This document shows positions 20,849 to 39,885 of a stretch of 64,000 nt of DNA, piece after piece. The DNA comes from Rhodocyclaceae bacterium (GTDB taxonomy: Bacteria; Pseudomonadota; Gammaproteobacteria; Burkholderiales; Rhodocyclaceae): the NCBI GenBank assembly GCA_006218025.1, contig VBWA01000017.1, positions 1 to 64,000 on the forward strand, written 5' to 3'. How positions within the stretch are numbered: position 1 is the first letter of the stretch; each line of letters starts with the position of its first letter. The notes beneath the pieces are model-generated. The model had not been told where the DNA came from and made no database searches. It saw nothing but the letters and a program-made list of their open reading frames with translations. Position numbers and translations under genes: made by a program.

Positions 20849-20917
20849 AGCCGCGTGGCGGATGCGACATGAATGTGATGGGAAGGTTGAGCTTGCATCG
20901 CTAACACCATGATGTTA

Positions 20918-20976
20918 TTTTAGTTACGGCCGCTGCGCTGAACGCCGATAGGGCTGGCGTTAGCCTTCACTGAAAC
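20918..20976 (+). repeat. structured dispersed element B, copy 1 (upstream of fimV)
   Basis: 59 bases that can fold as a stem within a stem: TTTTAGT pairs with ACTGAAA at the ends, and GCT-g-AACGCC pairs with GGCGTTAGC inside. About 90 percent identical to the copy at 38300. It lies in the 200-base gap between asd and fimV, in direct tandem with copy 2. It could be a cis-acting RNA or a REP-like DNA element. Confidence 0.65.
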
Positions 20977-20982
20977 AGAAGG

Positions 20983-21033
20983 TTTTAGTTCCGGCATAGC
21001 GCCGATAGCGCAGGCGTTAGCCCTCACTGAAAC
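20983..21033 (+). repeat. structured dispersed element B, copy 2 (tandem, shortened)
   Basis: 51 bases, six bases after copy 1 and in the same orientation. It keeps both ends (TTTTAGTT and CACTGAAAC) and the AGCGCC/GGCGTT inner stem but lacks eight bases of the left arm. It ends 14 bases before the fimV ATG and 41 before an alternative GTG start. Confidence 0.65.
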
Positions 21034-21047
21034 TTCGTTTTGATACC

Positions 21048-23771
21048 ATGATAAAAAGCCCGCCGGGAGTCACAGTGCCCAATACTGACAAGCGAAATCG
21101 TCTCAAGGCCACCGTCATAGCGGCGGCGATTGCCGTCCTGCCTTTCGCGGCACATGCTGCGGGATTAGGAAAGATCACCGTGCTCTCGGCGCTGGGGCAG
21201 CCCCTCAAGGCCGAACTTGAAGTCACCGCGAGCCGCGAGGAGGCGACGTCGCTGCTGGCAAAGGTGGCTCCTGCCGAGGCTTTCCGCCAGGCAGGAATCG
21301 AATACTCCCCGGCGTTGGCCTCTCTGCATTTTTCTCGCGATATCAAGGAGCGCGGTGGTCGCCGTTATCTCGAGCTAAGCACAGATCGGCCATTGAACGA
21401 GCCGTTCATCGACATGCTGGTCGAATTGAGCTGGGCTTCGGGACGCTTGGTCCGGGAGTACACCTTCCTGCTCGATCCACCCGATCTGGCCGTGAAAGCA
21501 GCTCCGGCGCCGATTGCGGCACCCGAGGTCAGGATTGAACCCGCGATGCCCAGATCGGGCGACAGAGCTGTGCCGATGCCGGCGGAAACCCGTCCGGTGA
21601 TCGAGAGCCGTCCCCCCGAGTCAAGGCAACCGGCTGAGAAACCCACTACCGGTTCACGCACGGTGGTCGTCGGCGATACCTTGGGCAAGATCGCGGCGCA
21701 GACAAAGCCGGAGGGCGTAAGCCTCGATCAGATGCTGGTTTCGCTGTTCCGCAGCAACCGGGAGGCGTTTGACGCCGGCAATATGAATCGCCTCAAGGCC
21801 GGCAAGATTCTTTCGATCCCTGATGCCCAGACGGCGAGTAAAGTCTCCGCCAGCGAAGCGCGCCGAGAGGTTGTCGCCCAGTCCGCCGATTTCAATGCCT
21901 ACCGCAAGCGCCTGGCAGCTGCTGCGGCGGCTGAGCCGGCCAGGGACCAGGGTGCGAAACAAGCTGTCAGCGGCAAGATCGCGCCAAAGGTGGAAGACAA
22001 GGCGCCGCCGGCGACGGGCAAGGACAAGCTTGAGGTTTCCCGCACGGAAGCGGCGAAGGACGCCAAGGGCCGGCCGCTGCAGGGCCGTATCGCCGCTCTT
22101 GAAGAGGATCTGGTGGCGCGCGACCGGGCGCTCAAAGAAGCCGGCAGTCGCATCGCCGAACTGGAAAGGAATCTCGGTGACCTGAAGAAGCTCGCCGAGT
22201 TGAAGAGTCAAGCGGGCACCGATCTGCAGAAGCAGGCGCAGGCCGCGAAACCTGCTGCTGCGGAAGTCAAGAAGCCGGAGGCACCGGCGCCGGCAGTGAA
22301 ACCCGCCGAGACCGCGAAGCCGGCGGAGACACCGAAGGCAGCAGAAGCACCGAAGCCCGCTGAGCCGCCGAAACCGGCGGAAGCCGCCAAGCCCGCCGAG
22401 GCAGGCGCTGCCATGAAGCCGGCGGATGAAGCGAAGCCGGCCGAGGCATCCAAGCCGACTGCGCCGAAGAAGAAAATCGTTCCTCCCCCACCTCCGCCTG
22501 AGCCGGACTTCATGGAGGAAAACGCCCCGCTGGTGTTTGGCGGTGGCGCCGTGCTGGCACTTCTGTTCGGATGGCTCGGAATTTCGGCGCTCCGCAGGAA
22601 GCGCGCCGCGGCGGCCGAAGCCAACGCAACCATTGCCGAATCCGATCTTTCGGCACACTCCGTGTTCAGCACGACCAGTCTCGCGCCTCCCCCGAGCGAG
22701 CAGGAAGCCAGCCAGTTCAGTTCTACCGCCTTGGGCATGGCGGCGCATCAGGAGACGGTTGATCCGGTCGTCGAAGCGGATACCTTCCTTGCCTTCGGCC
22801 GTGATGCCCAGGCGGAAGAGATTCTTTTGGAGGCTCTCAAGACAGATCCGCAGCGGGAGGCCATCTACACCAAGCTGCTCGACATCTATGCCGCGCGCAA
22901 GAATGTTTCGCAGTTCGAGTCGGTAGCGAAGGAGCTGCACGTCCTGACCGACGGCAAGGGGCCGACTTGGGACAAAGCTGCCGCGATGGGTCTGGCTCTT
23001 GATCCCAATTATTTCCTCTACAGCTCCGCAGTGCCCGATGAGACGGCGCCTGCCCCTGCCGCTGCGTCGGAGATGGATGCCACGATGGTGCTCAACGTCG
23101 CTGCGCCGTTCGCCGAAGAGACAGCAACCCCGGCTGCAGTGGCTCCTGCCGCCGCTGAACCTGTCAGCGTGGACTTCGATCTGGATATTGGCACTGCATC
23201 CGCATCCGCATCGGCGCCGGCGGCCACGGCGGAGCCTGCGCTGGATTTCGACCTCGACCTGGGTGCGCCGGAAACGAAGCCATCTGCTGAATCGACTGCG
23301 CCGGCTGAGGCCAAAGGAGCCCTTGACATCGAATTCGACATGCCGGGCAAGCCATCCGAGGTCGCTGCACTCGAGTTCCCGTCGTCTGCCGAGAAACCTC
23401 CTGCGGCGCCGGAGACATCTGCTGCCGCGCCAGCCGACTCGGGAAGTATCGATTTCGACTTCGATCTTGGCACGCCCGAGGCTGCCGCGCCAGCGCCGCT
23501 GCCTGAGATGTCGATTGAGATCCCTGCCGCGCCAGCGGCGGCGCCGCTCGATCTCGGCGGCATCAGCCTCGAACTGGAGACACCGGCCGCAGGCGGCGCC
23601 GAGGCTGGCATGCCTGACAATCCAGAAGTGGCTACCAAACTGGAACTGGGAGCCGCCTACGAGGAAATGGGCGACAAGGACGGCGCCCGCGAGCTGTTCA
23701 AGGAAGCACTGGCCGAAGGCAGTCCGGCGCAGCAGAAAGCGGCCCGCGCCAAACTTGACAGCCTCGGCTGA
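21048..23771 (+). CDS. fimV: FimV-like pilus-assembly / peptidoglycan-binding protein
   Basis: 907 residues. In order: signal peptide (about 18-37, ending AHA), FimV N-terminal domain (LGKITVLSALGQPLKAELEV), a LysM module near 203-262, a coiled coil and Ala/Pro/Lys-rich linker, one membrane helix near 494-515, and a C-terminal TPR-like motif (AAYEEMGDKDGARELFKEAL). FimV proteins organise type IV pili and polar machinery. A short acidic motif of the DFDLDLG type recurs four times at about 23170-23480. The ATG at 21048 lacks a clear Shine-Dalgarno; a GTG at 21075 has GGGAG five bases upstream and may be the true start. Two copies of element B lie just upstream. Confidence 0.92.
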   Translation: MIKSPPGVTVPNTDKRNRLKATVIAAAIAVLPFAAHAAGLGKITVLSALGQPLKAELEVTASREEATSLLAKVAPAEAFRQAGIEYSPALASLHFSRDIKERGGRRYLELSTDRPLNEPFIDMLVELSWASGRLVREYTFLLDPPDLAVKAAPAPIAAPEVRIEPAMPRSGDRAVPMPAETRPVIESRPPESRQPAEKPTTGSRTVVVGDTLGKIAAQTKPEGVSLDQMLVSLFRSNREAFDAGNMNRLKAGKILSIPDAQTASKVSASEARREVVAQSADFNAYRKRLAAAAAAEPARDQGAKQAVSGKIAPKVEDKAPPATGKDKLEVSRTEAAKDAKGRPLQGRIAALEEDLVARDRALKEAGSRIAELERNLGDLKKLAELKSQAGTDLQKQAQAAKPAAAEVKKPEAPAPAVKPAETAKPAETPKAAEAPKPAEPPKPAEAAKPAEAGAAMKPADEAKPAEASKPTAPKKKIVPPPPPPEPDFMEENAPLVFGGGAVLALLFGWLGISALRRKRAAAAEANATIAESDLSAHSVFSTTSLAPPPSEQEASQFSSTALGMAAHQETVDPVVEADTFLAFGRDAQAEEILLEALKTDPQREAIYTKLLDIYAARKNVSQFESVAKELHVLTDGKGPTWDKAAAMGLALDPNYFLYSSAVPDETAPAPAAASEMDATMVLNVAAPFAEETATPAAVAPAAAEPVSVDFDLDIGTASASASAPAATAEPALDFDLDLGAPETKPSAESTAPAEAKGALDIEFDMPGKPSEVAALEFPSSAEKPPAAPETSAAAPADSGSIDFDFDLGTPEAAAPAPLPEMSIEIPAAPAAAPLDLGGISLELETPAAGGAEAGMPDNPEVATKLELGAAYEEMGDKDGARELFKEALAEGSPAQQKAARAKLDSLG

Positions 23772-35962: not shown

Positions 35963-37213
35963 TTACGCGGCGCCTTCGAAGACGATTTTCCAGCGGCCGC
36001 CTTCCTTGATCCAGTACTGACGTTTTTTCATCTGGCTGGAAAGGTTGCTGGAGCGGTAATCCTGCTCGAAGGTGACGACGACGTATTCTTCCTTGCCGGG
36101 ATTGCGGAACATGCTGATATTGCCGGTATCGACCTTGATCCAGCTCTTGGCCGCGTTGACCTTGCGCTTCTGTTCGATCCAGCCCTGATAGCCCTGCCCG
36201 TCGGAATGGAACTTGTGCGAGTAGTGCCGCGCGTAGTGCTCGATGTTGCGGCTCTCCCAGTCCTGCCGCCATTCCTCGACATTCTTGAGCAGTGACGTGC
36301 GTTCGCTCTGCCAATCGTCGAGCGACAGCCATTCGATGCTGTTGCTGATGATCACCGGGGTCAGGCCTATCTGCAGGCTTTTCGACAGCGTATCGAGATC
36401 CTGGTTGGCCAGAACCACGCAGCCGTCGGAGGCCCTGGGCGGGCGCGAGAAGGTGTCGGACGGCGTGCCGTGCAGCCAGATGCCGTGGCCGTTGCGCCCC
36501 TGGCGCTTGTCCCAGTCGTTGGGATAGTTGATCGGGAAGGCGCCGCTGCCGTAAAAGTCGGTCAGCTTCTGCCGCGGCAGGCTGGAGGTGACGTGATAGA
36601 CGCCGATCGGCGTCTTCTTGTCGCCCTCTCTGGCCTTGTCGGAACCGAGCTTGCCCTGCGAGATGTAGTAGTCGGCGACGAACCGCGGCGTGCCGTTGTC
36701 ATTCTGGTAAAGATAGAGGCGGGACTTCTGCGTATCCACCACCACCGCGTGCTTCTGTTCCGGATGCATCTGCAGCAGATACCGCGGTACATAGTCGGCC
36801 GGCGGCTTGGTGCGGTAGCCCTTGAGGCGGACGATGGCTTCGTCGCGCAGATCGGCGATCTTTTCCCCCGCCCCCGCTCCAGCTCCGCCGCCTTCGCCAA
36901 AGGACATCAGGGGGCGGGAGCGCGCCAGCAACAGGTCGCCCTGGACCAGATGCGCCAGACGGAAATTGGGATAGGCCTTGATCAGCATGTCGGTCTGCTG
37001 CATGGCGACTTCAAGCCGGTTGGCTTCGATGGCATCGAATACTTTTGCCAGTAGCGGCTCCGGCCCCGAATCGGTATAGCTCGCCGCGACGGCGCCCGTG
37101 CCGGCAGTCTTCTTGAGATGCTTGGGTGCCTTGCCCGCAGCATTGGACGCGCCTGCAGCAAGCAGCAGGCTGCAGGCGGCAATGACTGTCAGGAGGCGCA
37201 ACGGGTGGCGCAT
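35963..37213 (-). CDS. L,D-transpeptidase (YkuD) with C-terminal NTF2-like domain
   Basis: 416 residues. Signal peptide (about 1-25), a helical TPR-like region (about 50-100), then a YkuD catalytic domain with the histidine in WLHGTPSDTF (near 245) and the nucleophile in ASDGCVVL (near 264). The last 120 residues form an NTF2/SnoaL-like domain (W-x-x-D-W … FEQDYRSSN … GGRWKIVFE). Such enzymes make 3-3 crosslinks in peptidoglycan or anchor outer-membrane proteins to it. The gene shares its start with the end of the upstream TPR gene, whose C-terminal domain is of the same kind. Confidence 0.88.
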   Translation of the reverse strand: MRHPLRLLTVIAACSLLLAAGASNAAGKAPKHLKKTAGTGAVAASYTDSGPEPLLAKVFDAIEANRLEVAMQQTDMLIKAYPNFRLAHLVQGDLLLARSRPLMSFGEGGGAGAGAGEKIADLRDEAIVRLKGYRTKPPADYVPRYLLQMHPEQKHAVVVDTQKSRLYLYQNDNGTPRFVADYYISQGKLGSDKAREGDKKTPIGVYHVTSSLPRQKLTDFYGSGAFPINYPNDWDKRQGRNGHGIWLHGTPSDTFSRPPRASDGCVVLANQDLDTLSKSLQIGLTPVIISNSIEWLSLDDWQSERTSLLKNVEEWRQDWESRNIEHYARHYSHKFHSDGQGYQGWIEQKRKVNAAKSWIKVDTGNISMFRNPGKEEYVVVTFEQDYRSSNLSSQMKKRQYWIKEGGRWKIVFEGAA

Positions 37214-38262
37214 CAGCTACCGACCCGCTCCTGCAGGATCTGCCACTTGCCGTCGCGCTTGCCCATCAACAGCGTCTTGTTGCTGGATGTCTTCAGCGAA
37301 GCCGACTTGTAATGCTGACGGAACTTCACTGTCGCGGTGTCGCCATCGACGCTTATGCGCAGGTTTTCGTAGCTGACCTGGATTGCCCCCGGCTTGGCGA
37401 TGCGTTTCTGGCGCTCGGCATCCCACGCCGAACGCGATTCGCCGGCCGGGGTCTTGAAGTCGCGGGCATAGGTCGCGAGGTAGGCCTTTACGTCCTTGCG
37501 CGACCAGGCAGCAGCCCACAGGTCGATGGCATTGGTGATCTCGGCATTGGGATCGCCTGCGGCTTTTGCCGCAGCGGGCTTGGGCGCTTCGGCGGGCTTG
37601 GCCGACACGGCCGCGGGCGCTGCGGCTACCGGGGCGGCAGCGACAGGGGTGGGTGCGGCTTTGGGTGCTTCGGCGAGCTTGACGGGTTCGGCCGGGCGCG
37701 CATCGCCTATCGGTTTGGTGGTCTTGCCGGGACGGCTGGCGGTGCCCATCAGATCGCGAATCAGGGCCAGCTTGTTCTGCGCGCTGGAATTCGATGAATC
37801 AATCTGCAGCGCCTTGTCATAAGCCTGACTGGCGAGTCGCGCGTAAATGTCGCCGAGGTTCTCGTGGGCGGTCGCGTAGGACGGATGGGTGCGGATGGCC
37901 ATTTCCAGCGCCTGCTTGGCCTTGTCATACTGTTTCTGCTGGGCGTAGATGACGGCGAGGTTGTTGTAGGGTTCAGGCAGTTCCGGGTAATCCTCGGTCA
38001 GTTTGGTAAACATCACGATGGCCTCGTTGGGCTTGTTCATCTCGGTCAGCACGATGCCCTTGAGAAAGCGCCCCTGCGCATCCTTGGGCTTGGCAGCAAG
38101 ATACTTGTCGACCTGTTCCAGCGCCTGGGCATGCTGCCCCTGCTTGATCTGCTTGCTGATGTCCTGCAGCGCGTCGGCATGGACGGCCGGTGCCAGTGCC
38201 AGGAGCGTGACGGAAAGGGCTGATGCCAGTAGGCGTGCGGCGGTGAGGCGGATTTGGGTCAT
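37213..38262 (-). CDS. exported TPR-repeat protein with C-terminal NTF2-like domain
   Basis: 349 residues. Signal peptide (about 1-29, ending VHA), three or four TPR units (about 30-150, for example EPYNNLAVIYAQQKQYDKA), an Ala/Pro-rich linker (about 185-235), and a C-terminal domain resembling that of the neighbouring L,D-transpeptidase (W-x-x-A-W-x-x-K-D, KFRQHYKSAS, GKWQILQE). It overlaps the transpeptidase by one base, so the two are probably coupled and may act together in the envelope. Confidence 0.82.
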   Translation of the reverse strand: MTQIRLTAARLLASALSVTLLALAPAVHADALQDISKQIKQGQHAQALEQVDKYLAAKPKDAQGRFLKGIVLTEMNKPNEAIVMFTKLTEDYPELPEPYNNLAVIYAQQKQYDKAKQALEMAIRTHPSYATAHENLGDIYARLASQAYDKALQIDSSNSSAQNKLALIRDLMGTASRPGKTTKPIGDARPAEPVKLAEAPKAAPTPVAAAPVAAAPAAVSAKPAEAPKPAAAKAAGDPNAEITNAIDLWAAAWSRKDVKAYLATYARDFKTPAGESRSAWDAERQKRIAKPGAIQVSYENLRISVDGDTATVKFRQHYKSASLKTSSNKTLLMGKRDGKWQILQERVGS

Positions 38263-38299
38263 GGTATATACTTCTCGTTGACGGTTGCCCGAAAATGAA

Positions 38300-38357
38300 T
38301 TTAGTTACGGCCGCTGCGCTTAACGCCGATGAAGCTGGCGTTAGCCTGCTCTGAAAC
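38300..38357 (+). repeat. structured dispersed element B, copy 3 (between TPR gene and cysS)
   Basis: 58 bases closely matching the fimV-upstream copy 1, with the differences mostly in the apical loop and the 3' arm. The inner stem TAACGCC/GGCGTTA is preserved, and the outer stem is shortened. It lies in the 252-base gap between two divergent genes, 38 bases from the TPR gene start and about 157 from cysS. The rest of the gap shows nothing recognisable. Confidence 0.65.
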
Positions 38358-38514: not shown

Positions 38515-39885
38515 ATGTTGAAGCTCTACAACACCCTGGCCCGCGAGAAGCAGGTCTTCGTTCCTATCGAGCCCGGGCGTGTCAGCATGTATGTCTGCGG
38601 CATGACGGTTTATGACTTTTGTCATCTAGGGCACGCTCGCGTCATGGTGGTGTTCGACTTGGTGGCGCGCTGGCTCCGGGCCAGCGGTTACGCCTTGACC
38701 TATGTGCGCAATATCACCGATATCGACGACAAGATCATCCGCCGCGCGCAGGAGAACGGCGAGACGATCCGGCAGTTGACCGACCGCTTCATTGCCGCCA
38801 TGAACGAAGACGCGGCGGCGCTGGGGGTGTTGCGCCCGGACGCGGAGCCACGCGCTACCGACTATGTACCGCAGATGCTGGACATGATCGGCACGCTGGA
38901 AAAGAACGGTTACGCCTATGTCGCGGGGAGCGACGACGTCTGCTACTCGGTGCGCAAGTTCGAAGGCTACGGAAAGCTTTCCGGCAAGTCGCTGGAAGAT
39001 CTGCGTGCCGGCGAACGCGTCGATGTCATGGCCGGCAAGCACGATCCGCTCGATTTCGTGCTGTGGAAGCACGCCCGGGATGACGAGCCTGCCGAAGTGA
39101 AGTGGGATTCGCCCTGGGGACCGGGGCGCCCGGGCTGGCATATCGAATGCTCGGCCATGGGATCGCGGTTGCTCGGCAAGCATTTCGACATCCACGGCGG
39201 CGGCCAGGATCTGCAGTTTCCGCACCACGAAAACGAGATCGCGCAATCGGAAGGTGCCCATCAGTGCCAGTTCGTCAATTACTGGATGCACAACGGTTTC
39301 GTCCGCGTCGATGACGAGAAGATGTCGAAGTCGCTGGGCAACTTCTTCACCATCCGCGAGGTGCTGAAAAAGTATGACGCCGAAGTGGTGCGCTTCTTCA
39401 TCCTGCGTGCGCACTACCGCAGTCCGCTCAACTATTCCGATGTCCACCTCGACGATGCGCGGCAGGCACTGACTCGGCTTTACACGGCACTCAAGGGCGT
39501 CGACGGCGAAGCGGAAGTGGATTGGAACGAGCCGCATGCGGTGCGCTTCAAGGCCGCGCTGGATGACGACTTCGGCACGCCGGAAGCGATGGCGGTGTTG
39601 TTCGATCTGGCGACGCTGGTGAATCGCGGCGAACCGGCGCTGGCCTCGCAACTCAAGGCGCTGGGCAACGTGCTGGGCCTGCTGCAGCGCGACCCGCAAA
39701 GCTTCCTGCAGGCAGCGCCTGCAGGCGGCCTGAGCAACGAAGAGATCGAAGCAAAAGTCGGCGCTCGCAGCACGGCGAAGAAGGCGAAGAATTTTGTCGA
39801 GTCCGACCGCATTCGCGATGAACTGAAGGCGGCCGGCATCGTGCTGGAGGATGGATCGCAGGGGACCACCTGGCGTAGAGCCTGA
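38515..39885 (+). CDS. cysS: cysteinyl-tRNA synthetase
   Basis: 456 residues, class I synthetase. The HIGH-type motif (CHLGHAR near 38-44) follows the zinc cysteine in YVCGMTVYD, and [11 protein letters not shown] is the KMSKS loop. The C-terminal anticodon region contains [14 protein letters not shown], whose codons carry copy 7 of the dispersed motif with the most divergent spacer. Confidence 0.98.
39756..39775 (+). repeat. dispersed 20-base motif, copy 7
   Basis: AGTCGGCGCT with N6 = CGCAGC then ACGG, sense within cysS and read as KVGARSTA. Confidence 0.7.

Follow-up and report, generated by a model that had tools for sequence, protein, structure and literature searches.

The pair of repeats directly upstream of fimV very probably consists of two copies, in tandem, of a REP-like palindromic mobile element of about 63 bp that is dispersed, non-coding, and non-autonomous and that inserts directly 3′ of TTTT. 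We are much surer that the element is mobile than that it moves as a folded single strand; for the latter, which is argued by analogy with better-known elements, we would put the chances at about even. The features are collected in Table 1, with positions given in the window, by which we mean the whole stretch of 64,000 nucleotides that was analyzed.

Table 1. Features of the fimV upstream region and the third element copy, in window coordinates
Feature	Position	Strand	Basis or detail
41-bp block directly upstream of the insert, ending in the target TTTT	20881..20921	+	23-species comparison
Element copy 1, long form, 59 nt, TTTTAGT...ACTGAAAC	20918..20976	+	inner stem AACGCC/GGCGTT; covariance model 81.0 bits
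Net insertion, 120 bp, two units, relative to the empty site TTATTTT-GATAACATG	20922..21041	+	ten sister species
Linker AGAAGG, six bases, separating the tandem copies	20977..20982	+	read from sequence
Element copy 2, short form, 51 nt, without the 8-nt left insert	20983..21033	+	inner stem AGCGCC/GGCGTT; 61.8 bits
Right tail TTCG plus second TTTT, closing the insertion	21034..21041	+	empty-site comparison
fimV/HubP-family gene	21075..23771	+	GTG start inferred; TIGR03505/TIGR03504
Third copy in the window	38299..38357	+	81.8 bits

The sequence is as the earlier note had described it: a tandem foldable element before fimV, 51 to 59 bases per copy, with a six-base spacer and two stems. The two copies lie head to tail, with ends TTTTAGT/ACTGAAA, and repeat finding places 34 nt of them in register at 91% identity. 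Copy 2 folds better than shuffled sequence (z = −3.35, 0/200 shuffles as good), as does the pair with its flanks (z = −4.03, 0/200); copy 1 by itself folded not much better than its shuffles (z = −0.73). The three window copies score 62 to 82 bits, with E about 1e-13 to 1e-18, under a covariance model built from 17 copies, two of the three window copies having belonged to the training set. Given these scores and the dozens of copies elsewhere, the window pair is more than chance. Even the linker has counterparts, AGAAAA(T) in another tandem pair of the same genome and AGATTG in the orthologous pair of genome G002. The third copy sits between a minus-strand ORF (37213-38262) that looks like a TPR protein and a plus-strand ORF (38515-39885) that looks like cysteinyl-tRNA synthetase, both judged from the sequence alone.

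Further copies in the genome, for which the earlier note proposed a search, were readily found. With the fimV pair region as query, blastn marked 19 places, and the covariance model raised this to 35 copies (E ≤ 0.01) or 44 (E ≤ 1); the 24 other genomes searched in the genus hold between 3 and 54 copies each. Across the order, which we judge to be Betaproteobacteria from the named relatives found through asd, the model has matches at E ≤ 1e-4 in 70 of the 300 genomes sampled and in 35 of the 133 genera. Of 397 genomes sampled throughout the phylum, only five were positive, four from the same order (own genome included) and one from the same class. Tandem arrays other than the window pair, also head to tail and with a period of 57 to 77 bp, were seen at four loci (L219, L229, L242, and L257). 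The plasmid records searched held no match to the element, and Rfam 15, at the gathering threshold and at E ≤ 5, returned no family for it, the sole match being a tRNA beside one copy. At one locus of genome G044 (L269, 1501-1633), a copy lies directly before a tRNA gene. Searches of the open-access literature by sequence and by topic found no published description of the element, which is weak evidence of novelty.

Comparison of orthologous sites defines what was inserted. When 1.1 kb of asd-fimV was aligned by blastn against the genus, the alignment was broken at the same two points in most species. The fimV site is empty in 10 of 23 species, reading TTATTTT-GATAACATG or a close variant; in the other 13 it is filled by an insert that starts at the same TTTT and reads TTTTAGTTACGG in nearly all cases. 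In the genome studied here, TTTT flanks the insert on both sides. Three other sites (L003, L026, and L030) repeat the fimV junction, TTTT-AGTT...GAAACTTCG-TTTT, and two of these, L026 and L030, each have five empty relatives. The identical junctions at fimV and these three sites thus mark the unit as a mobile element of about 63 bp beside T4. A further clean site (L028) has TATT and TTTC as flanks in place of TTTT, and at two sites, L027 and L032, the junctions were not clean. In general, the flanking 4 bp are nearly always T-rich, not random. Where TTTT stands on both sides as a fixed sequence, target duplication and fixed-site joining look alike.

How often the fimV site was hit is less simple. 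On a tree built from the flanking asd-fimV coding DNA, the filled state requires four changes, at least two of them forced by well-supported branches. The interiors of the inserts differ so widely between species that an old insertion followed by remodeling fits as well as repeated insertion does. An enlarged apical hairpin common to the filled sites of five genomes (G010, G021, G022, G019, and G020) suggests one old insertion, remodeled and then precisely lost several times; alternatively, the same spot may have been hit by insertion more than once. We imagine that copies would spread at TTTT, with tandem copies arising by repeated insertion at, or slippage between, TTTTs, and that loss would occur precisely between two TTTT repeats, either by an enzyme or by replication slippage over the palindrome. 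Such loss would account for the patchy distribution at the fimV site. A palindrome flanked by short direct repeats is a classical substrate for slippage, and so loss of the element could need no enzyme.

Two sets of junctions deserve separate mention. In three genomes (G005, G007, and G018; L169, L170, and L173), the fimV site holds an insert of about 60 bp with the left end TTTTAGTTACGG and a different right end, CGACYTAAAACATG, which may be a decayed element or a different palindrome. At six other copies (L282, L286, L220, L228, L046, and L239), 28 to 72 bp of host sequence from the left side of the element recurs on its right side; gene starts are among the duplicated sequence (a fabD-like one in L046). 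The duplicated stretch stops at the left border or no more than a base from it, and the scores, 12 to 64, exceed the null 99.9% point of 17 in five of the six. Under the simple TTTT model, such duplication of the left flank, seen in about six copies, would not be expected.

The consensus from 89 copies reads TTTTAGTTACGGCCGCTGCGCTTAACGCCGATNNNGCCGGCGTTAGCCTNCACTGAAACTTCGTTTTC, and the composition of their flanks gives a conserved tail, TTCGTTTT. The unit is AGTTACGGCCGCTGCGCTTAAC-(variable stem-loop)-GTTAGCCTTCACTGAAACTTCGTTTT, about 63 bp. Short forms lack eight bases, having GGCATAAC where long forms have GGCCGCTNCGCTTAAC. The inner stem, GC(T)TAAC-variable-GTTAGC, has one extrahelical base, and the outer stem reads TGTTGGC/GCCGAAA in distant genera. 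Folded as DNA, the consensus did no better than its shuffled versions (z about −0.6 to −0.75). Among 31 diverse long copies, the pairing covaries, the number of double-change cells being 31, compared with 10.8 for shuffled data (0/500) and 3 to 7 for slid controls; the covarying column pairs are 28-40 (CG/TA), 5-54 (AT/GC), and 7-52 (TA/CG), and both stems are maintained through compensatory change. Columns 4 and 55 are T.G in 31/31 rows, but the harvesting pattern demanded T and G there, and so the invariance rests only on unfiltered copies, nearly all of which keep it.

The earlier note had held that a lack of covariation, together with copies scattered without regard to gene 5′ ends, would favor a REP element. 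The result of this joint test is mixed: the scatter was found, and the absence of covariation was not. Since the pairing covaries and yet the copies lie regardless of gene 5′ ends, the covariation is to be read as that of a mobile element that folds rather than of a leader of fimV. Genes were called by a simple codon-based method, by which 79 of the 82 copies fell between genes and the remaining three lay antisense inside predicted genes. Both neighbors are sense to the element at 21 of the intergenic copies and antisense at 34, and a further 12 copies lie between convergent and 12 between divergent genes; these counts take in orthologous and nested copies and so are not independent. The downstream gene is sense for 33 and antisense for 46, and these 79 copies showed no preference for lying in sense at the 5′ side of a gene, as a cis-regulatory RNA must.

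This bears directly on the suggestion of the earlier note that the pair might be a tandem riboswitch or thermosensor before fimV. Much at the fimV locus itself would suit such an RNA: the pair directly follows an ultraconserved block of 41 bp and precedes the start codon, it has the same orientation in all 13 filled species, its stems covary, and it folds well. A tandem of two similar folded units ahead of a gene also recalls the glycine and c-di-GMP-I riboswitches. Unlike these, the element is dispersed in both orientations, lying before, behind, or antisense to unrelated genes, and matches no Rfam family; it is not conserved at the gene, since 10 of 23 congeners are without it and show no trace, and the interiors of the inserts vary greatly where it is present. 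We consider a cis-regulatory RNA very unlikely.

A regulatory effect on fimV is nonetheless possible and would be a by-product or a later co-option. The pair is preceded by asd and followed by fimV, recognized by its FimV core and C-terminal models; translation probably starts at the GTG behind GGGAG, rather than at ATG 21048, since the stretch between the two varies in length and frame among species. The 41-bp block is almost invariant in the 23 species, whereas its surroundings vary, and is probably the fimV promoter or a regulator site. By eye, it contains a promoter-like TTGCAT-17-TATTTT with a TG extension one base before, although a consensus promoter scan upstream of fimV found none, this motif included. 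If the block does serve as promoter, the element takes the place of the first part of the leader; situated between the putative conserved promoter and the ribosome site, it would enter the transcript as a 5′ leader. Co-option as a fimV leader is thus possible, but the ten species with an empty site indicate that it is not needed.

That leaves the kind of mobile element. The earlier note offered a REP-type palindrome as its alternative, and the part of that reading that stands is a scattered, mobile, imperfect palindrome; the GTAG/CGTC tag, the association with TnpA-REP/RAYT, and the inverted pairing do not. Like REPs and BIMEs (PMC3733652, PMC2817692, and PMC8266576), the element is short, intergenic, and bulged, with a conserved foot, many copies, clusters, and probable non-autonomous mobility. 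In some copies the left foot is GTAG or TTAG, and many genomes of the genus encode RAYT-like proteins of about 240 to 255 aa. However, the REP superfamilies in the literature carry GTAG or CGTC tags (PMC3733652), and REPs linked to RAYTs are likewise described (PMC2817692), whereas the consensus foot here, TTAG/TTGG, is base-paired and covarying, without an unpaired tag of either kind. Across 89 copies, TTTTAGT pairs with ACTGAAA, with A5-T54 changing to G-C in step. Close clusters run head to tail, an arrangement that is rare in REPs (PMC3733652), and not as the inverted pairs of BIMEs (HH/TT). The element also differs from REPs in inserting beside TTTT and in having fewer copies (tens).

Nor did a REP transposase turn up as a neighbor. 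No model match was found around 29 Y1_Tnp genes of the genus or around 23 Y1_Tnp matches in other genera, with flanks of usually 1.5 kb, and there was no association with Y1_Tnp/RAYT as a neighboring mobilizer in the genus plus 15 other genomes. Six genomes (G053, G182, G290, G124, G220, and G317) carry copies and gave no Y1_Tnp/RAYT match by profile or protein search; two of these, G053 and G182, consist of 1 to 3 contigs, are rated 100% complete, and hold many near-identical copies. TnpA-REP may have been lost from such genomes after the spread. On one contig of genome G021 (C78; L176, L195, and L203), three Y1_Tnp genes lie within about 5 kb, two of them of IS200-like length. A canonical REP, that is, a GTAG- or CGTC-tagged palindrome mobilized by the TnpA-REP/RAYT tyrosine transposase, therefore seems unlikely. 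We rejected filing the element as a REP on the tag, neighbor, and co-occurrence tests, REP-like though it may be in its working.

Somewhat less likely still is a classical MITE, which would derive by deletion from a DDE insertion sequence and have terminal inverted repeats and a target duplication of 4 bp. The insertion is clean, with the 4-bp TTTT at each end, and in three genomes (G053, G182, and G076) the element is nested within a larger dispersed repeat. As in the Correia/NEMIS, RUP, and ERIC families, it is small, non-coding, mobile, near genes, and foldable in transcripts; unlike them, it is shorter, T4 specific, and without terminal inverted repeats, its ends, AGTTACGG... and the complement of ...GAAACTTCG, not being mutual inverted repeats by eye. 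The flanking 4 bp are T-rich instead of random, and the loci examined contained no larger coding relative. A search for unpaired ends that would mark a larger autonomous element gave only variants of complete copies, except for L019, a left end whose right end is lost, and L018, a copy with its left end lost. The larger dispersed repeats (L296-L305, L290, L292, and L293), which start like GGAAACGCTGAATAAGTTGCTGCGC and enclose the element, occur in three genomes that belong to two families and are possibly MITEs spreading it.

An integron-type attC recombination site or cassette remnant is the most improbable of the readings considered. The 59-nt size, the folded imperfect palindrome, and the boxes GCTTAAC and GTTAGCC, which with their extrahelical T resemble R″ and R′, do bring attC to mind. 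GCTTAAC agrees with RYYYAAC, but GTTAGCC does not fit GTTRRRY; the conserved boxes are internal, the variable part is apical, and the outer arms are 7 nt. The copies occur singly and scattered and do not form cassette arrays. We rejected this candidate on geometry.

The element, then, is REP-like, and the fixed T4 on both sides, the lack of terminal inverted repeats, the conserved bulged hairpin, and the precise empty sites favor movement as a folded single strand. A bulged hairpin, a fixed tetranucleotide, precise empty sites, and no terminal inverted repeats characterize IS200/IS605-type elements and REPs (PMC8266576 and general knowledge), and the element shares the fixed target tetranucleotide, the lack of inverted repeats, and the precise donor joint. 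By this analogy, we imagine that the mobilizing enzyme would recognize the folded single strand, as in IS200/IS605 and REP systems, through a hairpin and cleavage at a fixed tetranucleotide. The likeness extends to the ends of IS608 and ISDra2 and their derivatives, which likewise have a hairpin at the end. Unlike these, the element is only 63 bp, has no tnpA, and has no demonstrated guide/cleavage pair. We treat an IS200/REP-like mechanism as an analogy because the loci examined around Y1_Tnp genes contain no copy and some copy-rich genomes have no Y1_Tnp detected.

Short palindromic repeats abound, but those best described are tied to RAYT transposases and have been catalogued mainly in gammaproteobacteria and alphaproteobacteria (PMC3733652). 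One can envision a betaproteobacterial family of 63-bp T4-targeting palindromes that moves without terminal inverted repeats or TnpA-REP, by a mobilizing system so far unconnected with small repeats, and that was co-opted in some species as a transcribed fimV leader, although we regard this fuller picture as rather doubtful. Our findings also carry a warning, that tandem covarying hairpins before a gene need not be regulatory RNA. With its presence in many betaproteobacterial genera, sharp junctions, many orthologous empty sites, and no known partner enzyme, the element makes the spread of REP-like elements testable in another lineage.
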